From the IMG/VR virus record IMGVR_UViG_3300024520_000426, positions 1 to 26,412 of that record: a stretch of DNA of 26,412 nt; one strand, given 5' to 3'. The notes beneath the pieces were generated by a model. It saw only the letters and a program-made list of their open reading frames with translations, was not told the origin of the DNA and searched no databases. Source of the DNA: a virus. A program made the position numbers and the translations under genes. Shown piece by piece: positions 3,932 through 26,042 of the stretch; position 1 is the first letter of the stretch; every line of letters begins with the position of its first letter.

Positions 3932-4006
3932 ATGCTAAAAGTACACAGGTGCAAATTATGGAATGGCAGTATATTTTCTGTGGAGGCCGCAAGTGTTCAA
4001 ATATAG
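3932..4006 (+). CDS. possible 24-residue peptide
   Basis: ATG 3932 is preceded by AAGGA (3921-3925) at 6-base spacing, and the frame runs to TAG 4004-4006. The peptide is MLKVHRCKLWNG followed by 'SIFSVEAASVQI'. It overlaps the start of the next gene by 14 bases, so one role may be to carry ribosomes to the GTG at 3993. The good ribosome site is the main evidence. Confidence 0.35.
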   Translation: MLKVHRCKLWNGSIFSVEAASVQI

Positions 4007-4241
4007 GGATCACAGGGGTGGCCTGATTGAGTCAATGGAGACCACGCAAGAGTTTAATAATAAAGATTCTCTATTGGAATATCTGCAATCAGTATTGGAT
4101 GACTGCTTTAGCGGCCACCTTGATTCAAGCAATGTAAAAATAGAGCCTTATTGTTTTGATGAGAGAGTGGGCTGGGATTGTCATATAGTGCATCTTGAGG
4201 GGTGGGGAGTGTTTGGGTTTACAAATGGCCCTGTGGATTGA
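3993..4241 (+). CDS. small acidic hypothetical protein, GTG start
   Basis: An 82-residue protein. GTG 3993 is preferred because GGAGG (3982-3986) stands 6 bases before it. An in-frame ATG at 3963 has no ribosome site and would add ten residues read from the middle of the 24-residue peptide frame. The sequence is 'VFKYRDHRGGLIESMETT', an acidic helical middle 'LLEYLQSVLDDCFSGHLDSS', and a Trp/Gly-rich end 'DCHIVHLEGWGVFGFTNG'. No family is recognised. It is the last gene of the accessory row before the regulatory gap at 4242-4284. Confidence 0.55.
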   Translation: MFKYRDHRGGLIESMETTQEFNNKDSLLEYLQSVLDDCFSGHLDSSNVKIEPYCFDERVGWDCHIVHLEGWGVFGFTNGPVD

Positions 4242-4267
4242 GTCACGACTAGTATAAATCCTCGCAG

Positions 4268-4283
4268 CTGGTATTATAAACAG
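4268..4283. promoter_or_regulatory. LexA/SOS-box-like operator next to the LexA-like gene start
   Basis: CTGGTATTATAAACAG has the CTG-N10-CAG spacing of the gammaproteobacterial LexA box, with AT-rich centre and CAG followed by TA as in the consensus. One position of the left half (CTGG instead of CTGT) departs. The right half ends 1 base before the ATG at 4285. The centre contains TATTAT (4272-4277), a plausible -10 box, which would put the transcript start at or near the ATG and give a leaderless or nearly leaderless message. No good -35 is visible. Confidence 0.5.
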
Positions 4284-4284
4284 T

Positions 4285-4500
4285 ATGAGGGACGAACTAA
4301 CAATAACACAGGCCGACGTATACGGATGGCTCATTCATTTCCATGCAGTTAATGAATACATGCCATCTAGGGTAGAGATAGCCAACGAGTTTGGATGGGC
4401 CAGTGCAAATGCTGCTCACGAAGTCCTTTCTGCTTTGGCTAAAAAGGGCTATATTACGTTAGTGCCCAGTGTTGCTAGAGGGATAAGGATCAATGATTAA
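4285..4500 (+). CDS. stand-alone LexA-type winged-helix DNA-binding domain
   Basis: The 71-residue protein aligns without gaps to the N-terminal DNA-binding domain of LexA: 'LTITQADVY', '[20 protein letters not shown]', '[15 protein letters not shown]' and 'ARGIRI' match LexA's 'LT.RQ..V', 'P.R.EIA...G..S.NAA', 'E.L.AL.RKG.I..V' and 'SRGIR'. Recalled E. coli LexA gives about 40% identity by hand. In the recognition helix, S40, N42, A43 and E46 match LexA's contact residues S39, N41, A42 and E45, while LexA E44 is replaced by H45. The protein stops where LexA's linker begins. It has no Ala-Gly cleavage site, no Ser/Lys protease dyad and no dimerisation domain, so RecA cannot cleave it. It has no ribosome site and sits directly after an SOS-box-like operator. 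It may repress its own and other SOS-type promoters. Confidence 0.8.
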
Positions 4501-4717
4501 CTTAATAAAGTGGTGGAAGGGCGTTACTAAGCCTAAACCTTTAAATTGGGTTGTTGGCAGCTTACCTGCAAATGATGTTTTTGTGGCCATTGATCGAGGC
4601 AATAAGTATCATGAGCTAGGCTTGTATGACGATGGCCAGTGGTCACTTGTCGAAGATGCTATGTGGGGCTTTAATTATGAAAATATTGATTCACCACTCC
4701 GCTGGAGCTATGAATAA
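4493..4717 (+). CDS. small Trp-rich hypothetical protein
   Basis: A 74-residue protein whose ATG lies 8 bases inside the LexA-like gene, so the two are co-translated. It has seven tryptophans. The first 20 residues are basic ('[16 protein letters not shown]'), followed by a compact acidic part, '[43 protein letters not shown]', that looks like a small beta fold. No family is recognised. Coupling to the LexA-like gene suggests a partner or modulator, but this is inference only. Its stop overlaps the next start (TAATG). Confidence 0.55.
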
Positions 4718-5823
4718 TGGGTAATTTTGTTTACGGCCCACACACATTAAACCCGATGAATGACGCTTTAAGCTATACGGGTACAGCCTCACAAGGCGGC
4801 ACAATAACCATAATCACCGATGGCACCTACGACTTTGGTGCAACAGGCCCGACCCTATCCTATAGGATGCCTATAAGCTCTATGGTTGATGGTAGCCCTA
4901 TCCCATTAACAAACTCAGGCGCAGCAACGGTAACTAATAACGCCTTTGGCCCACCTATCGTTGAGGATGTGGTTGCTATGCCACGCGGTAAGGCGATTCA
5001 GATTGGTGCCGAAGACTCTGTTGACAATTCAACGGATTACCGCCAGCTGAAAATGGTTGACCCTGCAGTGGAGTTAGAGTTTTTCGAGCATTACTACTGG
5101 TACTTCCCCACAGCAAACCAAGTAGCAGCAGCCCCAGAGCTAGACGGTGCAGCCACATGGCAGCAAAAATGCTTCTGGGAGTTCGTTGATACGGACGGAA
5201 CATCAAGCGGCACTAAGAGTGATGGCTTCCACGGAACGCCCTTGTGGAATGCTGGCGGGCTGTACTGGACATCCGGCAACGCATTCTCTACTAACATGAC
5301 CTCGCAAACCATAACGGGTAACGGATCAGGTATTACCAATCCCGGTAATAATGCGACAGTACGCGACACGCCTTGTTCACGGCAGATGTGGATTAAGTGC
5401 GATCCTATACTGAGCGGTACAGTCTCCAGCGGCTTCTGTGAAACCATTGAATCAGGTACAGGTGATCAAACCACAACCGACCTATCAGGTAATAACTTAG
5501 GGGGTACGGCCACAACAGGGTACGATAGAGCTAACCTCCCCGGCTTTAGTCGCGGCCATAACATACCTCTAGGCGCTCATACGCTAATAGGCGATGTGTA
5601 CAGAACATACGGAGCCGGTGCAGCAGCCAGGGTTGAAATACATGATGCAGAATTAGATGCAAATGTGACTAAAAAGGCTATATGTAATATTGTCACATGG
5701 GTAGATGATGAGCTTGTATTAACGGTTGATGAGGGTATCTTTTACCAGGAGGTGTCATTAAGCGGTAAGTTTTTCGCCATTTATGATTCAACGAGCACCT
5801 TAATAGCGAAGATTGTGATATGA
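4717..5823 (+). CDS. probable virion or surface beta-rich protein
   Basis: A 368-residue protein rich in Gly, Thr, Ser and Asn and poor in Lys, with no signal peptide or membrane span. The composition and strand-like repeats fit an extracellular or virion-surface beta protein. Recognisable parts are an N-terminal 'GGTITIITDGTYDFGATGPTL', an aromatic middle 'ELEFFEHYYWYFP', 'WQQKCFWEFVDTDG' and 'GLYWTSGNAFS', and a C-terminal strand region 'DDELVLTVDEGIFYQEVSLS'. The aromatic middle hints at a lectin or jelly-roll sandwich. The gene is co-translated with the small Trp-rich gene upstream (TAATG) and with the next large gene (ATGA at 5820-5823). Placing such genes before the terminase, not after the tail genes, is uncommon. 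No enzyme motif is recognised. Confidence 0.55.
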   Translation: MGNFVYGPHTLNPMNDALSYTGTASQGGTITIITDGTYDFGATGPTLSYRMPISSMVDGSPIPLTNSGAATVTNNAFGPPIVEDVVAMPRGKAIQIGAEDSVDNSTDYRQLKMVDPAVELEFFEHYYWYFPTANQVAAAPELDGAATWQQKCFWEFVDTDGTSSGTKSDGFHGTPLWNAGGLYWTSGNAFSTNMTSQTITGNGSGITNPGNNATVRDTPCSRQMWIKCDPILSGTVSSGFCETIESGTGDQTTTDLSGNNLGGTATTGYDRANLPGFSRGHNIPLGAHTLIGDVYRTYGAGAAARVEIHDAELDANVTKKAICNIVTWVDDELVLTVDEGIFYQEVSLSGKFFAIYDSTSTLIAKIVI

Positions 5824-6995
5824 CAACGATATATATTAACTTAGGCTCTACAGGCTCAAACGTAGTACCGCCATGGGATGATAATAACTTCGGAACCACT
5901 GCCTCAACAACTGTCGGTGTTATTAGTAGCGATCTTTTAGATGACACGTCCAGTTCAACAGGTATTGGGTTCGAGAACATAACAGCGTTTAATGGTGCTT
6001 CAGGGTCGATAGGTGCCGCTACTGTAGATTCTGGAGGTTGGCCACACCAGACTTTTGACTTCTTTTGGTATTTCAATGGAACGGGCGGCACACAGCGACT
6101 AACAGGCCTAACCAACGGTGATACTTACGTTATAGAGGCTGCCGGCCATCAATCAAACGCAGCCAGAGATACAAACTTCACGATTGGCGGAACAACTACT
6201 TTATACGACTCTTCAGGCACCACTACACCTAACCCCCCTATTAGTTTCAGCGGCACAATATCAGGCACAACCCTAGACATTGACCCGGCCCTCGTTAGTA
6301 CATTTGGTTATGTTAATGGCTTTAAGATCATTATCACAGCCGCAGCATCTGGCCCAACAGTAACAGGCCCAACTACGATTACCGATGGTGTAGCGGTACA
6401 ATTCACAGGTACAGACCTAGATACAGCGACTACAGCAGGCTTTCAGTCTGGAACTGATATCGTAACTAACACCATAGATGCCCAAACAGCGACTACACTC
6501 GATATCACACCAGACTTAGGAACACCTACTTCAAGTACACCAGTAGCGAGTATGCCCGTAACTCCAGACGTTACAGCAGCAGGTATCACGCCTTACGTAT
6601 TAGAATCATGGGCAGACGATGGCAGTAACAAAGGTACATTCACACTTACTACATTAAGCGCTGGAGCTAATACAACTACGTGTCAGGGCATGATAGCTAC
6701 CTCAAACACCACTGAGGGTGAGTCATTGCTCGCTGCTAGCATTCTACCGACCATGGAAGATGATTATCAGTGGACAGGCCCATCAACTCAGAGCGGCGTT
6801 ACAATCACGTACAACGCAGATGGTACGGTATCAACATCACCCGCTAATCAAATCACAGTAGACATTATAGGGTTCTCACCAGCAACCGGACAAAGATCAC
6901 TAGCTAGAGTAACCATAACAGGCACCGTCATTGGCGCAGGGCTATCAATTAAGTCAGTCATTAAGAAATCAGTACGTAGAAGTATATTGGGATAG
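5820..6995 (+). CDS. Ser/Thr-rich beta-repeat protein, probable virion decoration; possible amber-extended form
   Basis: A 391-residue protein, over a quarter Thr/Ser, overlapping the preceding stop by 4 bases. Residues 1-180 form a beta domain with 'TFDFFWYFNGTGGTQRLTGLTNGDTYVIEAAGH', the pattern of galactose-binding-like modules on surface proteins. Residues 180-260 look like an IPT/Ig-type module ('GPTVTGPTTITDGVAVQFTG'), and 260-370 like another Ig-like module. The tail, 'GLSIKSVIKKSVRRSILG', is basic. After the TAG stop (6993-6995) the frame stays open for ten codons, reading QGLGKRSILG before TAA 7026-7028 and repeating the same terminal motif. Readthrough, or a recent nonsense mutation, is possible. 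The role is inferred from composition only. Confidence 0.55.
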   Translation: MTTIYINLGSTGSNVVPPWDDNNFGTTASTTVGVISSDLLDDTSSSTGIGFENITAFNGASGSIGAATVDSGGWPHQTFDFFWYFNGTGGTQRLTGLTNGDTYVIEAAGHQSNAARDTNFTIGGTTTLYDSSGTTTPNPPISFSGTISGTTLDIDPALVSTFGYVNGFKIIITAAASGPTVTGPTTITDGVAVQFTGTDLDTATTAGFQSGTDIVTNTIDAQTATTLDITPDLGTPTSSTPVASMPVTPDVTAAGITPYVLESWADDGSNKGTFTLTTLSAGANTTTCQGMIATSNTTEGESLLAASILPTMEDDYQWTGPSTQSGVTITYNADGTVSTSPANQITVDIIGFSPATGQRSLARVTITGTVIGAGLSIKSVIKKSVRRSILG

Positions 6996-7103
6996 CAGGG
7001 ACTGGGCAAAAGGTCTATATTAGGCTAATTTAAAGCAGACCCTAATTTCCCAGGCACAGCTCCAAGCTTTCAATTTACAGCAATCAAAATATAGGTACAC
7101 ATC

Positions 7104-7385
7104 ATGGCTACAGGCATATTAACAGCAGATGGCACAACCAAGTCGATCCTAATAAGCAAGGGTGAAACTCATGTAAGCCTAAACGGTACATTTGGCGGCG
7201 GCGTTGTCGCGATAGAGAAAGTGGTCAATGGCCAAACAGCGCCCGCTTACGACTCTACAACAGCTATCACAGTATCAGCACCAGAAGACATGATTCTATC
7301 CATAGGAGAGGGCATTAAGCTAAAGCTAACCCTATCCGGCGCTACATCGCCTAATATTATATGGTCAATCAGCGCAGTTAGATAA
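7104..7385 (+). CDS. small beta-rich phage structural protein
   Basis: A 93-residue protein beginning 'MATGILTADGTTKSILISKGETHVSLNGTFGGG' and continuing with 'VAIEKVVNGQ' and 'GEGIKLKLTLSGATSPNIIWSI'. Regular alternation of polar and hydrophobic residues indicates a single beta sandwich. Such short 'GT..s..l.k..t.vsl.gtfggatv.ie' proteins are found in phage virions as fibre-associated or decoration proteins, but no specific family can be named. It follows a 75-base gap after the two large surface-type genes. Its stop overlaps the start of the HNH gene (TAATG). Confidence 0.55.
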   Translation: MATGILTADGTTKSILISKGETHVSLNGTFGGGVVAIEKVVNGQTAPAYDSTTAITVSAPEDMILSIGEGIKLKLTLSGATSPNIIWSISAVR

Positions 7386-7750
7386 TGGCCCTAACACTGA
7401 TAGCGTTCACGATTATTTGTATAGCTATCGGTGAGATACAGGTACTAACAACGAGAAAGGTCGATAGCGCAGCATTAATGCGCCATTTTCACAGATCGCC
7501 AAGCTGGAAAAGATTAAGCTATCTAGTAAAGGTCACACAAAAACAGATTGACGGCTATCTACACTGTGAATGCTGCAAGACAAAAGAGGGTGACATGGAC
7601 GAAGACGGCAAAGCAATCAGCTTTCACACCGACCACATACTACCCAAATCCCTATACCCTGAATACGCACTAGAGATAAGCAACACACAAATTCTCTGTG
7701 CAGACTGCAATCAAGCAAAAAGTAATATTGATTTCACCGATTGGCGCTAA
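7385..7750 (+). CDS. HNH endonuclease with an N-terminal membrane segment
   Basis: A 121-residue protein. The C-terminal half is an HNH nuclease of the zinc type: C61-x-x-C64 and C105-x-x-C108 for zinc, the catalytic D83-H84 in 'HTDHILPKS', N100, and 'LCADCNQAKSN' ending the fold. HNH proteins beside terminase genes assist DNA packaging cleavage in several phages (HK97 gp74 is the known case), and TerS lies only 140 bases downstream. Unusually, residues 1-21 form a hydrophobic span, 'LTLIAFTIICIAIGEIQVL', so as written the nuclease would be membrane-anchored. The start is set by the TAATG overlap with the previous gene. The internal ATG at residue 32 lacks a ribosome site but would give a soluble protein. 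Confidence 0.8.
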   Translation: MALTLIAFTIICIAIGEIQVLTTRKVDSAALMRHFHRSPSWKRLSYLVKVTQKQIDGYLHCECCKTKEGDMDEDGKAISFHTDHILPKSLYPEYALEISNTQILCADCNQAKSNIDFTDWR

Positions 7751-7762
7751 TTAGGTTATAAT
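7733..7762 (+). promoter_or_regulatory. probable late-gene promoter
   Basis: A perfect -10 TATAAT (7757-7762) has a TTCACC (7733-7738) 18 bases upstream, matching TTGACA at four positions. The start point would fall near 7769, inside the LexA-box-like operator. It lies in the only gap between the HNH gene and the terminase operon, so it is well placed to drive packaging and head genes. Confidence 0.55.
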
Positions 7763-7763
7763 A

Positions 7764-7779
7764 CTGTATAAGTTAACAG
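7764..7779. promoter_or_regulatory. LexA/SOS-box operator over the late promoter
   Basis: CTGTATAAGTTAACAG fits the gammaproteobacterial LexA box CTGT-N8-ACAG at all eight fixed positions. It is preceded by TA as in the consensus and has an AT-rich spacer. It begins two bases after the TATAAT box, so a bound LexA-type protein would block initiation. The bound protein could be host LexA or the phage's own LexA-type domain encoded at 4285-4500. Confidence 0.65.
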
Positions 7780-7799
7780 CAACAACCGGAAGGACTGCT

Positions 7800-7898
7800 A
7801 TGGAATATGCAATAATGGGTTTCTTTGTCACAGGGTGCGTAGGCTGCTATTACCTAGGGGCGATGAATGAAAGAGCTAGGGGTAAGGGCAATGGCTAA
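7800..7898 (+). CDS. 32-residue membrane mini-protein
   Basis: ATG 7800 has a strong ribosome site GGAAGGA (7788-7794) at 5-base spacing. The peptide reads 'MEYAIMGFFVTGCVGCYYLG' and ends with a basic 'AMNERARGKGNG'. It is one short hydrophobic segment with two cysteines, then a positive tail that should stay in the cytoplasm. It is the first gene after the late promoter, and its last codons overlap the TerS start at 7891. It may be a coupling leader for TerS as well as a peptide. No family is recognised. Confidence 0.5.
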   Translation: MEYAIMGFFVTGCVGCYYLGAMNERARGKGNG

Positions 7899-8343
7899 AC
7901 TAACCGATAAGCAGCAAGCTTTCTGCGAAGAATACCTAGTAGACCTCAATGCCACTCAAGCTGCTATACGTGCCGGATACAGTGAAGACACCGCAAGGCA
8001 AATAGCTTCTCAGAACTTGTCAAAAGTTAACGTAGCCGAAACTATAGCTAATCTTCAAGCTGAGCGTAGCGCTAAGACCGAGCTAAACGCCCAGTGGGTG
8101 CTTGATAGACTTCAGCGAGTACATGACAGGTGCATGCAAGAAGAGGCTGTAACGGACGGTGACGGCCCCACAGGGGAATATCGTTTTGAGCATTCAGGCG
8201 CTAATAAGTCATTAGAGCTAATTGGTAAGCACTTGGCTATGTTCACCGACAAAACAGAACACCGGGGCGCAATAGGTGCTATCGATATGTCTAATTGGTC
8301 TGATGAGCAGATAGATGCCTACATCGCTAGCAATTCGAAGTAG
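7891..8343 (+). CDS. terS: terminase small subunit
   Basis: TerS binds the packaging site on phage DNA and hands it to the large subunit. The 150-residue protein starts 'MAKLTDKQQAFCEEYLVDLN', then 'ATQAAIRAGYSEDTARQIAS', the N-terminal helix-turn-helix signature of the Terminase_2 family, followed by 'QNLSKVNVAETIANLQAER'. A helical central part probably mediates ring assembly, and the acidic C-terminus ends 'SDEQIDAYIASNSK'. ATG 7891 is preferred because family members begin with this M-x-K-L-T and AGGGGT lies 8 bases upstream. An in-frame ATG at 7867 would add eight residues. The gene overlaps TerL by 29 bases. Confidence 0.88.
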   Translation: MAKLTDKQQAFCEEYLVDLNATQAAIRAGYSEDTARQIASQNLSKVNVAETIANLQAERSAKTELNAQWVLDRLQRVHDRCMQEEAVTDGDGPTGEYRFEHSGANKSLELIGKHLAMFTDKTEHRGAIGAIDMSNWSDEQIDAYIASNSK

Positions 8344-9922
8344 AGACGATAAGCTCGCACTGGCTAACGCTATAGCTATCCGCAATCAACGCCGGAATAG
8401 GCTAAAGACTGTCTTTGGCATTTACGCCCCTTCAGATAACGGCCCCAAGCTTGTTAAGTCATTGCAAGAAGTCGGCGGTGAGTTTATCGAGGTTGATAAG
8501 CCGCCCACTGTCACTATCCCCCAAAAGCTAGAGAGATTCGTCACTACTAAGAAGCGGTTTAAAATAGGCTTTGGCGGGCGATCAGGTGCCAAGTCGAATA
8601 CCTTTGGCGATATCTTTGCTGCCCAGGCCAAGGACTACGGCACTAAAACTATATGTCTGCGAGAACTGCAAAACTCTATCGAAGACTCGGTACATGCTCT
8701 ATTGGCCGCTGAGATTAAACGCCTAGCCTTTGATGGGTTTGATATTACTAATAACGCTATACGCCTTAATGGCGAAGATGTGTTTAAGTTCAAGGGCTTG
8801 GCCAGAAACCCGGACGCTGTTAAATCAATGTTTGGCTTCAGACGAGCCTGGGCAGAAGAAGCGCAAACGCTAAGCCGCGAATCAATAGCCATGCTAACGC
8901 CAACGATCAGGGAAAAGGACAGTGAGATATGGTTTAGCCTTAACCCTGGCAGCAGTGAAGACCCTATAAGCAAGCGGTTCCTTGAGCCATTCTACGACTC
9001 GCTATTACGTGATGGTTATTATGAAGATGATTTGCATCTCATAGTCTGGATTAATTACACAGATAACCCTTGGCACTCTCAAGAGCTAGAGCAGGAAAGG
9101 CTATTTGATAAGTCGGTACTGTCTCGCAGCGAGTACGATCATAAGTGGCTTGGCCATTACAACGACTCTATAGATAACGCGCTTATACCCTCAGAGGTAT
9201 TTGATTCGTGCATTGATGCCCATAAGAAGCTTGGCTTCGGCCCTATTGGCGCTAAGTACGCAGCACACGACCCCAGCGACACCGGCCCAGACAGTAAAGG
9301 CTATGCCATGCGCCACGGCTCGGTACTGTTGGCAGTAGAGGAAAATATAAGCGGTAATATCAACGAGGGCGGCGATTGGGCTACCGGCTTAGCTATTAAT
9401 CACGGCGTAGACCACTATACTTGGGATTGTGACGGCATGGGTGTCGGCTTGGGCAGGCAGACAGAGGCAGCTTTCCAAGGTAAGCCTATTCAGGTCACGA
9501 TGTTTAAAGGCTCAGAGAGGCCCGACAATCCAAAGGCAGTTTATAAAGATGCGGCAAAGCATGAGATACTAGGCGAGAAGCTGGTAGCTAATGTGTTTAA
9601 GAATAAGCGGGCGCAATACTACCAAGAGCTAAGAGATCGCTGTTATAGGACGCACATGGCGATAACAAAAGATGAGTATCACGACCCTGATGAATTGATT
9701 AGTTTTGACTCAGCTATGGACTTATTGCCTAAACTTCGATCAGAATTGTGTAGAATGCCTGTTAAGCCTAACGCCAACGGCCTTATTGAGCTATACACTA
9801 AAGATGTAATGAAGGCCAAGTTTAAGGTTCCATCACCTAATTTGGCCGATAGTGTAATGATGCTTATGCGCGTAGAAAGGCAAGAGCAAGACATAGAAAT
9901 CAACTTTGACTCAATATTTTAG
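8315..9922 (+). CDS. terL: terminase large subunit, Sf6 gp2-like
   Basis: The ATP-driven packaging motor and headful nuclease, 535 residues. N-terminal ATPase: Walker A at 87-94 reads GGRSGAKS (usual form GGRGSGKS, so Ala stands before the Lys), adenine-motif region 'ICLRELQNSIEDSV' at 113-126, Walker B with acidic pair E181-E182 in 'GFRRAWAEEAQTLS', and coupling motif 'SLNPGS' near 208-213. C-terminal RNase H-type nuclease: D319, D322 and D326 in 'AAHDPSDTGPDSKGYAMRHG', D371/D373 in 'TWDCDGMGVGLG', and D512 in 'PSPNLADSVMM'. These blocks, with 'FKGSE' and 'FKNKRAQYY', closely follow Shigella phage Sf6 gp2 and not P22 gp2. Headful packaging is therefore expected. The first 70 residues extend beyond Sf6 gp2 and look variable, so a later start is possible. 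Confidence 0.93.
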   Translation: MPTSLAIRSRDDKLALANAIAIRNQRRNRLKTVFGIYAPSDNGPKLVKSLQEVGGEFIEVDKPPTVTIPQKLERFVTTKKRFKIGFGGRSGAKSNTFGDIFAAQAKDYGTKTICLRELQNSIEDSVHALLAAEIKRLAFDGFDITNNAIRLNGEDVFKFKGLARNPDAVKSMFGFRRAWAEEAQTLSRESIAMLTPTIREKDSEIWFSLNPGSSEDPISKRFLEPFYDSLLRDGYYEDDLHLIVWINYTDNPWHSQELEQERLFDKSVLSRSEYDHKWLGHYNDSIDNALIPSEVFDSCIDAHKKLGFGPIGAKYAAHDPSDTGPDSKGYAMRHGSVLLAVEENISGNINEGGDWATGLAINHGVDHYTWDCDGMGVGLGRQTEAAFQGKPIQVTMFKGSERPDNPKAVYKDAAKHEILGEKLVANVFKNKRAQYYQELRDRCYRTHMAITKDEYHDPDELISFDSAMDLLPKLRSELCRMPVKPNANGLIELYTKDVMKAKFKVPSPNLADSVMMLMRVERQEQDIEINFDSIF

Positions 9923-9930
9923 GAACAGTC

Positions 9931-12015
9931 ATGGCTTACGGTAAGAAGAAAAAAAGCAATAAGGACGATACCCGCTATCTGGCATGGATGGAAGAGCTAA
10001 AGAAGCTTCAGGAGTCAGACCTTGACCAGCGAGAGCAGGCAAGAGAGGCAGACCGTTTCCTATTGGATAAGGACGGCCAGTGGGAGGACGCTATTCGCAG
10101 GCAGCTAGATAGCCAGCAGCGCCCCCGGTATACCTTCGACAAGATAACGCCGGTTATCGAATCAATGATGGCAGATATTGAGGATATGGACTTTGGTGCC
10201 AATGTTAAACCAGAGGGCGGCGAGGCTAACAAAGATACAGCCAAAACCCTAGATGGCATGATACGCACCATACAGAACATGAGTGGTACCGAGGCTATCT
10301 ACCGCAAGTCATGTCGTAGAATCATGCGCCGGGGCTTTGATGCCTGGATTGTTAAGGCTGATTATAAAGATCCATGGAGTTTTGTGCAGGATTTATTTGT
10401 TAAGCAAATCCCTAACGCTATTAGCCGAGTATGGGTAAGTAATACCTGCAGCAATGAAGACAGCTCTGATAGTGATGTAGCCTACGTACTCACATCACTA
10501 AGCCCAGAAGACTATAAAAAGCAATTCCCTGAAGGTTCGGGTATCAGTGTTGACGATGCCGATATCGATGAGCACTGGGATGAATACCGGCCAGAGGTTA
10601 TTACCATTGGCGAGCGCTACTACCCCAAAGAGGAAGATGTTGAGGTTGCACAGCTCAGTAATGGCGATGTGGTTAGGCTCGATGAGAAGTGGGATAAGAT
10701 CAAAGATGAGAAAGCAGCCCAGGGTATTAAGGTTGTTAAAGAGAAAACAGTAAAAGACTTTGTTTGGTGCCATATCACATTTGACGGCGGCGGCATACTA
10801 ACCGAGGAGCGGGTAACAGTCTTTAAGTCTTGCCCGGTCGTGACAATTTACGGCAACCATGAGCTATTGGGCCAAAACTCTAAAATCACTTATTCGGGTA
10901 TTGTGTTGAAAGATATGGATGCTCAGCGTGTCCATAACTACGCCAAGTCAAGAGAGATTGAAGAGGGAGCGTTAGCGCCTAGAGCTAAGTGGTGGATGAC
11001 TAAGAAGCAGGCCAAGGGCAATGAGAAACAAATAGCCCGCATGAATATAAGCGCCGACCCTATTCAATTCTACACGCCAGATGCAGAAGCACAGCAGCCT
11101 TATTATGGCGGTGGCCCGCAGATTAACCCACACCTAACCAGCCTATCTAACCAGATGGGCATAGATATCAAAGAGCAGGCCGGTGTATTCGGTGCTATGC
11201 AAGGGCAGTTTGCTGGAAGGCAGTCAGAAGACTCTGTGAGAATACAGATTGATAGGGGGACCGCCGCTACTCGTAAGTGGGTTAACTCCCTTACAAACGG
11301 CATACAGCGCGTATGCGATCTATTAGTGCAAGCTATCCCCGATGTTTACGACACCAAGCGACAAATGAACATTATTGGCATTGATGGCGCAGAGGAGCTG
11401 GTTACACTCAATGAAGAAATCTACGACCAGCAAAGCAAGAAGATGGTCAAGGTTAATAACCTTAACGCCGGTAAGTACAAGGTAACGTGTAATGCAGGCC
11501 CAGCATTTAGTAATCGCCTGGAGGCAGGTCTATCCGCTATGCTTGAATATGCCGCTATTGACCCCTCTGTAGTTCAATCAGGTGGCGACTTGATGCTTAA
11601 ATCTATCGATGCGCCGCTAGTTGATCAAATGGCAGAGCGTAAACGCGCCCAGTTGTTACAAGCTGGCCAGATACCGCCTGACCAAATGACTGATGACGAA
11701 AAAGAAATGATGACCCAGCAAGCCAATCAGCCTAAGCAGCCAGACGCCGGAATGCTATTAGCTCAAGCTGAGAACAAAAAGGCTGATGCTGACATACAAA
11801 AAGCTAAGAACGATCAGGATAGATTAACGCTAGAAATGCTGAAACTTCAACAAGGTGGCCAGAAGCTAAGTATCGAAGAGGCCAAGGCTATAGCTGATAT
11901 TCGCAATAAGAACGCCAATACAGCTAAGACCATGGCAGATACTGAAAAGGTAAGCGGAGAGGTTATAGGCAATACCATCGATAATATCGGTAAGCTATCG
12001 CCTAACCTCCAGTAG
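9931..12015 (+). CDS. portal protein, P22 gp1-like
   Basis: The dodecameric portal is the DNA gateway at one capsid vertex and binds TerL, then the gp4-like factor. The 694-residue length is close to P22 gp1 and Sf6 gp3. The N-terminus is basic with 'DLDQREQAREADRFLLDKDGQW', then 'RPRYTFDKITPVIESMMADIEDMDF', the P22-portal signature for the stem and wing. 'CRRIMRRGFDAWIVKADY' and 'GIDIKEQAGVFGAMQGQFAGRQSEDSVRIQIDRG' follow in family order. Residues 590-690 are Ala/Gln/Lys-rich helix ('AENKKADADIQKAKNDQDRLTLEMLKLQQ'), matching the long helical barrel at the P22 portal C-terminus that extends into the capsid. AGGAA precedes the start. The minus-strand lipoprotein gene ends directly at its stop. 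Confidence 0.9.
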   Translation: MAYGKKKKSNKDDTRYLAWMEELKKLQESDLDQREQAREADRFLLDKDGQWEDAIRRQLDSQQRPRYTFDKITPVIESMMADIEDMDFGANVKPEGGEANKDTAKTLDGMIRTIQNMSGTEAIYRKSCRRIMRRGFDAWIVKADYKDPWSFVQDLFVKQIPNAISRVWVSNTCSNEDSSDSDVAYVLTSLSPEDYKKQFPEGSGISVDDADIDEHWDEYRPEVITIGERYYPKEEDVEVAQLSNGDVVRLDEKWDKIKDEKAAQGIKVVKEKTVKDFVWCHITFDGGGILTEERVTVFKSCPVVTIYGNHELLGQNSKITYSGIVLKDMDAQRVHNYAKSREIEEGALAPRAKWWMTKKQAKGNEKQIARMNISADPIQFYTPDAEAQQPYYGGGPQINPHLTSLSNQMGIDIKEQAGVFGAMQGQFAGRQSEDSVRIQIDRGTAATRKWVNSLTNGIQRVCDLLVQAIPDVYDTKRQMNIIGIDGAEELVTLNEEIYDQQSKKMVKVNNLNAGKYKVTCNAGPAFSNRLEAGLSAMLEYAAIDPSVVQSGGDLMLKSIDAPLVDQMAERKRAQLLQAGQIPPDQMTDDEKEMMTQQANQPKQPDAGMLLAQAENKKADADIQKAKNDQDRLTLEMLKLQQGGQKLSIEEAKAIADIRNKNANTAKTMADTEKVSGEVIGNTIDNIGKLSPNLQ

Positions 12016-13477: not shown

Positions 13478-14749
13478 ATGGCTAATGATTATCAGAGTAA
13501 TACCAATAAGAAGCTCTTAAAGTCTTTTGCTAAAGCGTTTGAGAGTTCAACTGTACTAACCAACACTGTTTCAAAGCAGCTTGTTAATGATTTCGATGCC
13601 TCAACGGGTGGAGATTACGGCAATGTTTCAATGAAGCGCCCGCCCCAATATGTTCCACAGCGTACCTCTGATGGTGACGTGACCGGCTCAACCAACCCAG
13701 TGCGAACTGGCAAGGTTCAAGCTAGTGTTTCTGACTACATCACGGTTTATGTTGAGAACACACAAGTTGAGGAAGCCTTAGAAGCTGACCAGCTAGACCA
13801 GTTGCTTGCTCCTGTAGCAGAAGACATGGTTGTAGAGCTAGAAAGCGAGCTTGGCGGTTACATGGCTGAGAATGCCGCGCATACCACAGGTGATCCAGAT
13901 ACATCGATTGCCGCATGGGCTGATGTTGCTAATGCCGGTGCCTTGCTGAAAGACATTGGCGCACCAGCAGGTAAGCGTTACGGCGTTATCGACTGCTTCG
14001 ACGAGGTAACTTTGGCCGACCTTCAAACGCAATTGGGTGTTAACCCTAATGTGAATGAAGCATGGGCAAACGCAGTAGTTAAAGAGGGGTTCGCTGGTTT
14101 GAACCAAGTTTTAACCACTAATAACCTACCTCAATATACAGCGGGTAACGATGTAACGGGTATTACTTTAGGCGCTACGCCAGCGGCTACTTATACCGCC
14201 TACAAAGATACTTACCGTATGACTATTACCTTAAGCGGCTTCACTGCCACTACAGGTACGTTAAACAAAGGTACCACCCTGGAATTCCCAGCCACTCACT
14301 TGGTTAATATGCGTAACCGCAAAACCTTGTTTAAAGCTGGCGCGGCTATCCCTCTAACCCTAACGGTATTGAACGACTATACCGCTGATGGTTCGGGTGA
14401 TATTACGGCTGAAGTATCAGGTGCGGCCATCTATGAAACTGGCGTAAACGCTGCTTTCAATACGGTTGATCGCGCTCTCGCGTCCGGTGACACTGTTACC
14501 ATTCGTGAAACAGCCGATGCTATCTACCGTCCAGGCCTAGCTTACTGCGAAGGCTTTGTGGGTATGGGTTCCGTTGTTCTACCTAAGCTACACGCTACTG
14601 ACTCAATGGTTATGAACCATAAAGGTTCTTCCATCCGGGTTCATAAGTTTAGCGATGGTGCAGGCAACAAAAACCGTTACCGCTTCGATATATTGCCTAC
14701 GTTCGCTACCTTCAACCCTTTCTGGGGTGTACGGATGAACGGTCAGTAA
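13478..14749 (+). CDS. major coat protein, P22 gp5-like
   Basis: The shell subunit, 423 residues compared with 430 for P22 gp5. The N-terminus, 'NKKLLKSFAKAFESSTVLTNTVSKQLV', then 'GGDYGNVSMKRPPQYVPQRTSDG' and the P-loop/spine region 'VENTQVEEALEADQLDQLL', follow P22 coat order. Residues of about 220-345, rich in Thr and beta strands ('YRMTITLSGFTATTGTLNKG'), occupy the place of the telokin-like inserted I-domain. The end, 'FDILPTFATFNPFWGVRMNG', is characteristic of the family. A strong AAGGAG ribosome site precedes ATG 13478, in keeping with the highest-expressed virion gene, and a strong terminator follows. Confidence 0.92.
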   Translation: MANDYQSNTNKKLLKSFAKAFESSTVLTNTVSKQLVNDFDASTGGDYGNVSMKRPPQYVPQRTSDGDVTGSTNPVRTGKVQASVSDYITVYVENTQVEEALEADQLDQLLAPVAEDMVVELESELGGYMAENAAHTTGDPDTSIAAWADVANAGALLKDIGAPAGKRYGVIDCFDEVTLADLQTQLGVNPNVNEAWANAVVKEGFAGLNQVLTTNNLPQYTAGNDVTGITLGATPAATYTAYKDTYRMTITLSGFTATTGTLNKGTTLEFPATHLVNMRNRKTLFKAGAAIPLTLTVLNDYTADGSGDITAEVSGAAIYETGVNAAFNTVDRALASGDTVTIRETADAIYRPGLAYCEGFVGMGSVVLPKLHATDSMVMNHKGSSIRVHKFSDGAGNKNRYRFDILPTFATFNPFWGVRMNGQ

Positions 14750-17184: not shown

Positions 17185-17650
17185 TATAGTCAATGAATTT
17201 GAGATTGTACTTGTCTCATACCAAGACGTTAAGGCCGAGCACCCAGAATGGTCTGATGTTGCGGTTGAGGATTATCAAGCTAGGGGTCGCGATGTAATAC
17301 GCGCTGCCGATGCCGTTAATGCGATCAATGAAGAAATAGTAATAATAAAGGCAAGGCTTGATGCTTTAGAGGATAGAGTTACTTACCTTGAAGGCTCAAC
17401 AGTAGTGACCGCTGTAGATGTAACCAGTATCGGCAATCAGGTTATAATATGCACTGATGCTTTAACGGTGACATTGGCGGCAACCCCTTTAGATAAGGAC
17501 GTTGTAGAGGTTAAGGTTACTAACGGCAAAGTTATCATTGACGGTAACGGCAACACAATAGACGGAAGCGATACAGTGACGGTAAGACGGAACAATACAG
17601 GGTTAAGCATGGAATACTCAGAGTCAGCTGATGCGTGGTATATCCTATGA
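17177..17650 (+). CDS. coiled-coil protein in the tail-needle position
   Basis: A 157-residue protein placed where P22 has the gp26 needle. Residues 1-45 form a helical N-terminus. Residues 46-73, 'NEEIVIIKARLDALEDRVTY', are a clear trimer-type coiled coil with isoleucine/leucine heptads. The C-terminal 80 residues are a beta domain, 'LTVTLAATPLDKDVVEVKVT' followed by 'NGKVIIDGNGNTIDGSDTVTV', a module also found at the ends of phage fibres. It is shorter than gp26 (233 residues) and shows no direct sequence match, so 'needle' is inferred from place and architecture. A short fibre or neck protein is the alternative. It overlaps the genes on both sides. Confidence 0.5.
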   Translation: MADIVNEFEIVLVSYQDVKAEHPEWSDVAVEDYQARGRDVIRAADAVNAINEEIVIIKARLDALEDRVTYLEGSTVVTAVDVTSIGNQVIICTDALTVTLAATPLDKDVVEVKVTNGKVIIDGNGNTIDGSDTVTVRRNNTGLSMEYSESADAWYIL

Positions 17651-23510: not shown

Positions 23511-26042
23511 ATGGCTTTAAATGTCGTTACATTAAACATACAGTATTATCCTGACCCAGACCAAGGCAGGCCACTATTTAACGCCTCGATCTACGTAGGC
23601 GTCCCCGATACTGACCCCGAATTACCCGCTAATCAAAAGCCGGTTATCGTTCGTCAAGAGGACGGCACAGATATTCCGGTAGCTCAACCTGTTATGACCG
23701 GGGCTGGCGGTGTTCCTATGTACATGGGTTCGCCGGTATCAATTCTTACTGATGGTAACTACTCGCTTAAAGTTTTAAAGGCTTCAGGTGCCCAAGCTTA
23801 TTACTTCCCTGATGCAGCCTCAGTAGCGAATCTAGTACCAGCTAGCGCGATATTCAACGAGCGTTATATTGCTACTGATTCAGAGGTTGTTATAGGCGGT
23901 GGTGAGACGGTTATTACTTTACGCCATCCCAATACAGCAGGTTCTAACTCGCTCTCTATGTTCGTTAACGGCGCAAGGCAATTCGTCGTTGTTGATTATA
24001 CCGAGACAGACACAACCGTAACCTTTCTTAAGGAAATGCTACCAAACGACAAGATTGATATTGTCAATGGCGAGCTAGCCCTACCCGGCGTAACTATTGA
24101 TGCCTCGGTTGTTTCTTATACAGCCCCTTTTACAGGAGCTGTTCAATCTGATGCTCAAACCAAGCTCTCGGAGAGTGTGAGTGTCAAGGATTTCGGCGCA
24201 GTGGGTGATGGGGTTACTGATGACGGCGAGGCGATGCAAGCCGCGTCAGATGCTAGTAAGGTTGTATTTTATCCTGCCGGTGAATACTTAACATCGGTAC
24301 CAATTAACCTTCCACAAGGGTCATGGGTGGAAGGTGAGGGTGCATACCAGAATACGCCTAGTGACAGGATAACTAAGGTTAACTTTACAGGTACTACTGG
24401 CTTTGCTTTTCAGTATGTTTCCCCTGTTAGCTCGTCAATTTTTGCTGGTGACTTTTCAGTTTACGGTATGTGGATTGCTTCACCCAACATTACTGATACG
24501 GATAAGGGGGGCTGTCTATTATTCGGGAATACGGATTTAGCTGGCTTTTCTACCTATGCTCCGATAGGACGCGTCAGTATTAAACAATGTTATCTAACTG
24601 GCGTAGCTGATGAGAGTATAGGTATTCTTATCACTAAGGTATTCGATTCTGACATCTCAGAAAACCGTATCGGTGGAGCTAATTACGGCTTAAGGTCGTA
24701 TGGGTCGGATATTAACGGTGTTATTAACAACCGATTCATTGCGAACGGTACGCATGTTAGGGCAACGGTTGCTGGTTCGTTTAGCGGTAGTTTGCTGTTA
24801 GATCATAATGACATGCTTACTGCAACTTATTGCGGTGTGTGGCTAGAGGGGTCTATTAGTCCAATACTATCAAACAACTATATCGAGCAGGTATCTGCGT
24901 CCGCTATAGATTCGCCTCAAACTGGTACGATCACGGTAAGTCCGTATTCTACAACTTTAACGGGCGTAGGAACTACATTTACAACCCAGTTAGCGCAAAC
25001 CCTGTTTGGTGGTAACAGGCTGAGGGTGCTAATCAAAGTTGGAGATGAGTACAGACAGGTCAATACGGTTACAAATGACACTACCATAATAATTGATAGA
25101 GCCTTTAACGCAGACACTAGCGGTAACAGCTGGTCGATTATCTATGGTACTGGTGTGATTGCAACTAGTATCACTGGTATTTCATTAAAAGATAATAGGA
25201 TTGATGTAACATCTGCGAATGGGACTGTTCCCCGATGCTATTTTGGTGGTGTATCTGGGGAGGTAAGTGATGTTTCGGGCGCTAATGCCCTTAATGGCCC
25301 TATTGCTATAGCCGATCAAAACCCTAACACAGGGCTGATAATCAATGACGGTTATAAGCTAGATGGGCCGACTCCTACAGATGGGGCGGCCAGGTTTGAT
25401 TTTTCATCTGATACGGCAGACGGTGCTGGAAAAAGCCAATTACTTGATGCAATTAGAGCTAACCAAAGAGTTAGGCCGGTAGTTATAAAAAATGCAATTG
25501 ACTGGTTTGAGCAGGGCGGCGTTGATCCTCGGCTGATACTAGCGGGCGCTGATACAAATAATACTCGCTCTGTAACTGTGGCCAATACGTCTGGAGCGGG
25601 AGATGACTTATCAATGGTCTTACCAGAGAGTTTCTGGGGTAAAAGATTAAGAATTAAAATACGAGTTAACCCTCGTAGTGTAGCATCCTTTATACAATTT
25701 CATATAGGAGCTTCTCTAGGGGCTAAAACGACATCCCTAGGATCTACTACAGCTACACCGGCAGGCAGCTGGTACGAATATGAATTTTGTACAAAGCTAC
25801 CTTCAGACACTTCATCGTCTAATAAATATTTAACAGTGTCTAAAAATACTCAGATTGTTTATTACGATTACGTTCTTATTGAAGCGATGGATGATAATGA
25901 TTTTATTTTCGGAACGGGTACGCCAGAAGGTGTTTACACGGCAGATATAGGGGCTATGTTCCGCAGGACTAACGGGGGAGCCTCAACTACATTATATGTG
26001 AAAGAATCGGGAGCCGGTAATACAGGCTGGATAGCTAAGTAA
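23511..26042 (+). CDS. tailspike with P22-type head-binding domain and beta-helix
   Basis: The receptor-binding spike, 843 residues. Residues 1-105 match the P22 gp9 head-binding domain: 'RPLFNASIYVGVPDTDPELP', 'ANQKPVIVRQEDGTDIPVAQ' and 'PVMTGAGGVPMYMGSPVSIL', which attaches to gp10/gp4-type hub proteins. Residues 115-190 are a small beta module ('VITLRHPNTAGSNSLSMFVN') widely used in phage fibres. From residue 224, 'SVKDFGAVGDGVTDDGEAMQ' opens a pectate-lyase-type right-handed beta-helix, with rung-like repeats such as 'LTGVADESIGILITKVFDSD' and 'SENRIGGANYGLRSYGSDIN'. Residues 620-780 form a carbohydrate-binding-like sandwich. The C-terminus, 'YVKESGAGNTGWIAK', is a common fibre end. Catalytic residues cannot be named. 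It probably cleaves or binds host surface polysaccharide. Confidence 0.85.
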   Translation: MALNVVTLNIQYYPDPDQGRPLFNASIYVGVPDTDPELPANQKPVIVRQEDGTDIPVAQPVMTGAGGVPMYMGSPVSILTDGNYSLKVLKASGAQAYYFPDAASVANLVPASAIFNERYIATDSEVVIGGGETVITLRHPNTAGSNSLSMFVNGARQFVVVDYTETDTTVTFLKEMLPNDKIDIVNGELALPGVTIDASVVSYTAPFTGAVQSDAQTKLSESVSVKDFGAVGDGVTDDGEAMQAASDASKVVFYPAGEYLTSVPINLPQGSWVEGEGAYQNTPSDRITKVNFTGTTGFAFQYVSPVSSSIFAGDFSVYGMWIASPNITDTDKGGCLLFGNTDLAGFSTYAPIGRVSIKQCYLTGVADESIGILITKVFDSDISENRIGGANYGLRSYGSDINGVINNRFIANGTHVRATVAGSFSGSLLLDHNDMLTATYCGVWLEGSISPILSNNYIEQVSASAIDSPQTGTITVSPYSTTLTGVGTTFTTQLAQTLFGGNRLRVLIKVGDEYRQVNTVTNDTTIIIDRAFNADTSGNSWSIIYGTGVIATSITGISLKDNRIDVTSANGTVPRCYFGGVSGEVSDVSGANALNGPIAIADQNPNTGLIINDGYKLDGPTPTDGAARFDFSSDTADGAGKSQLLDAIRANQRVRPVVIKNAIDWFEQGGVDPRLILAGADTNNTRSVTVANTSGAGDDLSMVLPESFWGKRLRIKIRVNPRSVASFIQFHIGASLGAKTTSLGSTTATPAGSWYEYEFCTKLPSDTSSSNKYLTVSKNTQIVYYDYVLIEAMDDNDFIFGTGTPEGVYTADIGAMFRRTNGGASTTLYVKESGAGNTGWIAK

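Follow-up and report, generated by a model that had tools for sequence, protein, structure and literature searches.

A probable LexA-family operator on the predicted late promoter of a P22-like phage that encodes a LexA DNA-binding domain

We analysed a 26,412-bp stretch of viral DNA, which is a whole IMG/VR contig (hereafter, the window), and observed that the promoter preceding its packaging genes is overlapped by a perfect LexA-type box at 7764-7779. It is likely that this site functions as a true LexA-family operator by which the late promoter is repressed, and that it is read by a truncated LexA-like protein of the phage (mini-LexA), by the host LexA or by both. The relevant features of the window are given below; L020 is a diverged relative.

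4268-4283, plus strand: second LexA-like site CTGGTATTATAAACAG with one mismatch; at 18.0 bits the second-best score of the window
4285-4500, plus strand: mini-LexA, a 71-aa LexA DNA-binding domain (PF01726, 3.5e-14; phrog_362)
7385-7750, plus strand: HNH endonuclease gene (PF01844), 40% identical in L020, directly upstream of the promoter
7733-7762, plus strand: sigma70-type promoter, TTCACC at 7733-7738, 18-nt spacer, TATAAT at 7757-7762
7762-7781: extended operator site TACTGTATAAGTTAACAGCA
7764-7779, plus strand: LexA-type operator CTGTATAAGTTAACAG, perfect CTGT-N8-ACAG, conserved in L020 at 7570-7585
7800-7898, plus strand: 32-residue hydrophobic ORF, the first gene after the operator
7891-8343, plus strand: terminase small subunit, terS (PF03592, 6.4e-32)
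8315-9922, plus strand: terminase large subunit, terL (PF04466, 8.6e-30)
9931-12015, plus strand: P22-type portal protein (PF16510, 1.8e-109)
13478-14749, plus strand: P22-type coat protein (PF11651, 2.4e-49)

Judged by these genes, the phage is a short-tailed, P22-like podovirus. The box matches CTGT-N8-ACAG at all the eight fixed positions, as an earlier sequence-only reading had stated, and it is the sole perfect match in the window. It lies between the stop codon of the HNH gene (7750) and the 32-residue ORF at 7800, and a single base separates it from TATAAT; the -35 element falls within the last codons of the HNH gene. Transcription from this promoter is predicted to start near 7769, inside the operator, which spans about -5 to +11 relative to that start. 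The overlap with the promoter region is as expected of an SOS operator, and the earlier placement of the box on the promoter of the terminase operon is supported. The claim that packaging genes come directly after the box holds for terS and terL as the genes that follow, although the first gene is the 32-residue ORF. Portal and coat genes lie downstream, and other genes that look virion-like by comparison with the relative are found ahead of the box.

The mere presence of a perfect box proves nothing, because about 0.4 such boxes are expected by chance from the base frequencies in 26 kb and the number of near-matches is average (7 sites with at most one mismatch in the window, below the shuffled mean of 9.7). 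A single perfect match in a stretch of this length is in itself unremarkable; this one is notable for its position and its conservation. We also scored the window with a LexA weight matrix, symmetrised from 17 E. coli sites, which may not suit the host of this phage. The site at 7764-7779 obtained 18.7 bits on this E. coli-based matrix (that of the host may differ) and ranked first in the window; scoring with a LexA matrix had been proposed earlier as a check. None of 60 Markov shuffles reached this value (maximum 17.05 bits), and it falls within the 13-26-bit range of the E. coli training sites. The third-ranked site (17410-17429, 16.0 bits) falls within a coding gene and is followed slightly downstream by a TATAAT; it may be a chance occurrence.

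Evidence on conservation came from L020, which was found by a TerS-based search of IMG/VR and resides on a 40.4-kb contig, G001. This contig ends in a 127-bp direct terminal repeat and is therefore apparently complete. The gene order in L020 is the same as that in the window: mini-LexA, further genes, HNH, box, terS, portal and coat. The proteins are much diverged, with identities of about 34% for portal and coat, 37-40% for HNH, 38% for mini-LexA and 63-65% for TerS, and tblastn detected no recognisable kinship between the large terminases. The pattern TTCAC[A/C]-N18-TATAATACTGTATAAG[A/T]TAACAG is nonetheless kept at the same spot in both phages, the promoter of L020 being TTCACA-N18-TATAAT. 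Over TATAAT and the box 22 of 23 bases are identical, whereas identity falls to 81 of 120 bases in the HNH coding sequence alongside and to 8 of 40 immediately downstream of the box. A box at terS was seen in two phages only, the window and G001, and these two are not fully independent, since mosaic modules are common to both. Scans of IMG/VR with the mini-LexA protein or with the two-row alignment yielded no further relatives. The promoter-plus-box pattern occurred in 61 IMG/VR contigs, and among the loci checked a packaging block was present only on the contig of G001; in a second scan with this pattern, 32 further loci were screened by the LexA profile only.

G001 contains exactly two perfect CTGT-N8-ACAG boxes, one at the packaging operon and the other at a lysozyme operon:

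G001, 39165-39180, read on the minus strand: second perfect box, at the start of the leftward lysozyme operon, just past the ninG region

This second box is 16 nt before an ATG and overlaps TATACT. The genes after it encode a phrog_1544-type protein and a phage lysozyme (PF00959), and on the basis of this lysozyme and its neighbours we designate the unit as a putative lysis operon. A longer overlapping ORF runs across the box, and its intergenic status is therefore likely rather than certain. Both perfect boxes of G001 thus mark the early-to-late boundary of the two arms, i.e. both late operons.

Next, we considered the phage protein that could read these sites. The mini-LexA is 70-71 aa long in the window and G001 and consists of the DNA-binding domain only. 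Its AlphaFold model is a complete winged helix (pLDDT 93.9), which superimposes on the DNA-bound E. coli LexA (3jso) with a Foldseek TM of 0.92 and 0.7 A. Compared with a complete LexA repressor, it has the N-terminal winged-helix domain and is devoid of the C-terminal S24 domain for self-cleavage and dimerisation; no S24 peptidase (PF00717) was detected anywhere in the window or in G001. As the S24 peptidase is missing, the protein is not self-cleavable through RecA. A phage LexA-type protein that may read the box, as had been supposed earlier, is present, but as a DNA-binding domain without S24. The recognition helix of the window protein, SANAAHEVL, keeps the S, the NAA and one E of the E. 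coli LexA helix, SPNAAEEHL, residues by which LexA contacts the CTGT half-site. The G001 helix, RPNAVRDRL, keeps fewer E. coli LexA residues than the window helix, and so its specificity may differ.

The gene for mini-LexA sits at the early/late junction of the phage. Between it and the HNH gene, the four ORFs of the window (4493-7385) have no Pfam or PHROG match; in L020, the third ORF region after mini-LexA (3965-4330) encodes a protein matching the virion structural family phrog_3758, which places mini-LexA just ahead of the pre-terminase virion-like genes. The second LexA-like site of the window ends 1 nt before the mini-LexA ATG and overlaps a -10-like TATTAT. Its position abutting the ATG suggests autoregulation, and the site is probably the autoregulatory operator of mini-LexA; upstream of the G001 mini-LexA gene no matching LexA site was found. 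Elsewhere in the window, 428-583 encodes a lone Phd/YefM-type antitoxin homologue with no obvious adjacent toxin gene, and a similar protein is encoded in G001 near 7896.

We then asked whether the box follows the mini-LexA. A conserved box in related phages had been proposed as a check, and it was present in L020, the only relative found with mini-LexA, and absent in those where no mini-LexA was seen. The latter comprised 56 loci (616 kb) related by TerL, portal or HNH, with three sites of at least 14.5 bits, none of them at a packaging promoter; many of these contigs are fragments, so that the absence of mini-LexA is uncertain. Two perfect boxes near terminase genes were dropped as chance occurrences, one inside a lipoprotein coding sequence (L004, position 201) and the other inside a repetitive ORF (L022, 5338), and a near-match in L205, CGGTAATTAATAACAG, was also inside a coding sequence. 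Upstream of TerS homologues in bacterial genomes, a perfect box occurred within 700 bp in 1 of 79 cases.

A broader comparison involved gammaproteobacterial phages encoding a LexA with the DNA-binding domain only: the window, G001, SfV, cdtI, BPM-V3, mEp390, EPP-1, Kp4866-6 and PA8. All nine have a site of at least 16.6 bits, while the best sites of nine comparison phages were of 14.6 bits (lambda) or lower (Mann-Whitney p 0.002, Mx4 being scored as a failure). This Myxococcus phage encodes such a LexA, yet the 12 kb of it that we scanned contained no E. coli-type site; the LexA box of its host may be a different one. The nine phages are not all independent: a single homologous site, located within the initial codons of a methylase gene, is common to SfV, cdtI and Kp4866-6. 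Late promoters carry the strong site in the window and G001 alone; in the other phages it is near a dinI-like gene (mEp390), the methylase gene, a Rha-family gene and mini-LexA (EPP-1), or a DUF1654 gene and an unknown gene (PA8). From these sequence comparisons, the link between protein and site appears to be general, with late-gene control indicated in the window and G001 only.

Some of these genomes merit separate description. In Pseudomonas phage PA8 (L335/L336), the LexA sites at 25518 and 44062 of the record (24.8 and 22.5 bits) precede the DUF1654 gene and the unknown gene, the genome has no other good site, and the gene at 33888-34097 encodes a LexA of about 70 aa with the DNA-binding domain only. 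In Edwardsiella phage EPP-1 (L327), a 23.9-bit site at 31241 is upstream of the Rha-family gene, which is followed by a 71-aa mini-LexA (32005-32220), apparently a second autoregulated mini-LexA operon. In L159, a gene for a DNA-binding-domain-only LexA (7687-8240) is directly upstream of the same HNH-nuclease family that precedes the box in the window; this contig has no matching terminase genes.

We propose the following mechanism for the operator. Judging from its position, binding of a LexA-type dimer across about -5 to +11 would obstruct RNA polymerase, and the late packaging/virion operon would stay off until this dimer is released. Both mini-LexA and host LexA might be able to read these sites. 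Mini-LexA would act as an uncleavable, RecA-independent brake, its amount held steady by autorepression, and replication of the phage DNA could titrate it off the late promoters. Host LexA, in turn, would tie the first late expression to DNA damage. With mini-LexA as the main ligand, DNA damage would therefore not induce the switch and there would be no RecA response; coupling of the late operon to DNA damage is plausible only if host LexA binds as well. As far as sequence can indicate, co-occurrence favours mini-LexA as the ligand, and the canonical box together with the diverged G001 helix favours host LexA. The late genes are thus probably timed by LexA-like proteins, and not by the late regulators that phages usually employ.

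A more specific proposal, which we put forward only tentatively, is that mini-LexA is a dedicated late regulator in this group of podoviruses that represses the packaging/virion and lysis operons and its own gene via host-style SOS boxes, is independent of RecA, is released by titration and replaces a Q-type antiterminator. Such a protein could, in addition, keep the SOS regulon of the infected host repressed.

It is also conceivable, but rather unlikely, that host LexA alone reads the box, so that the late operon is directly under SOS control and mini-LexA does something else. The box is of the canonical gammaproteobacterial type with a score in the E. coli SOS range, albeit on an E. coli matrix that may differ from that of the host, and the same box is kept in two phages whose mini-LexA recognition helices differ. 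Moreover, neither a tyrosine integrase nor a serine recombinase, an S24 repressor or an AAA_31-type ParA is present in G001, which therefore does not resemble a temperate phage that integrates and relies on a CI-type repressor, although it has one HTH_3 domain; in this apparently complete genome, host LexA could serve as the repressor, as in the Bacillus tectivirus GIL01. However, host LexA alone fails to explain why the box tracks with mini-LexA instead of being spread among the relatives.

We consider it improbable that mini-LexA is an activator bound elsewhere at the late promoter, with the box serving host LexA. The precedent is gp6 of GIL01, a truncated LexA which acts at -43.5 to activate the late promoter, LexA itself repressing from separate boxes (PMC6182141), and the imperfect -35 of the window promoter would suit an activator. 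Against this, no gp6-type palindrome GNCACANNTGTGNC occurs near 7764 (the nearest match with at most two mismatches is 2 kb away), the TATAAT is perfect and the -35 of L020 matches at 5 of 6 positions, so that an activator is not obviously needed, and the mini-LexA gene itself has a LexA-like site. A chance match devoid of regulatory role, which the expected number of perfect boxes and the ordinary near-match count would allow, is hardly credible given the 22/23 island in the same promoter register beside diverged sequence, the second late-operon box in G001 and the link with mini-LexA.

Operators of host LexA share with the window box the CTGT-N8-ACAG core, the extended TACTGT half-site and the overlap with a promoter, but they control repair genes whereas the window box sits on phage late genes. 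Accounts of how phages use SOS normally concern control of the early switch. In SOS-controlled antirepressors of the 186 tum type, a LexA-type operator is likewise in a phage promoter, and it acts via the antirepressor on the early switch and not on virion genes. In the open-access papers searched, we found no report of a tailed phage whose late promoter carries LexA boxes. The phrog_362 LexAs of lambdoid, F116-like and Edwardsiella phages (SfV orf42, mEp390, EPP-1 lexA_2, PA8 lexA) are similar to mini-LexA in being about 70-170 aa long, without peptidase and accompanied by a strong LexA site in the genome; these phages differ in that their strong sites are next to other genes and that Q or a cI-type repressor is present in several of them. 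The link between such proteins and strong sites gives a testable use for this common, little-studied family, for example in the cultured phages SfV, mEp390 and PA8.

The closest precedent is GIL01, whose late promoter P3 is repressed by host LexA with gp7 and activated by gp6 (PMC6182141), gp7 also hindering the cleavage of LexA (PMC4551915). The contrast with known phages drawn in the sequence-only reading was hence overstated, since in GIL01 a late promoter is already governed by LexA boxes together with a truncated LexA (PMC6182141). No gp6 palindrome GaCACAnnTGTGaC was found at the -35 region of the window promoter, no Bacillus-type LexA box (CGAAC-N4-GTTCG) was found near it, and the virion genes are those of a tailed phage; for these reasons the window does not belong to the GIL01 type. 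GIL01 has no tail, contains a membrane and infects a Gram-positive host; its LexA boxes are of the CGAAC-N4-GTTCG type, and gp6 is an activator that has a palindrome of its own, whereas here, in a phage with the genes of a tailed P22-like virus, a gammaproteobacterial-type box overlaps the predicted start site. What the two have in common is LexA boxes on the promoter of virion or lysis genes and a phage-encoded LexA DNA-binding domain alone. If our interpretation is true, the logic of GIL01 would also operate in viruses of another, unrelated group and in a different lineage of bacteria.
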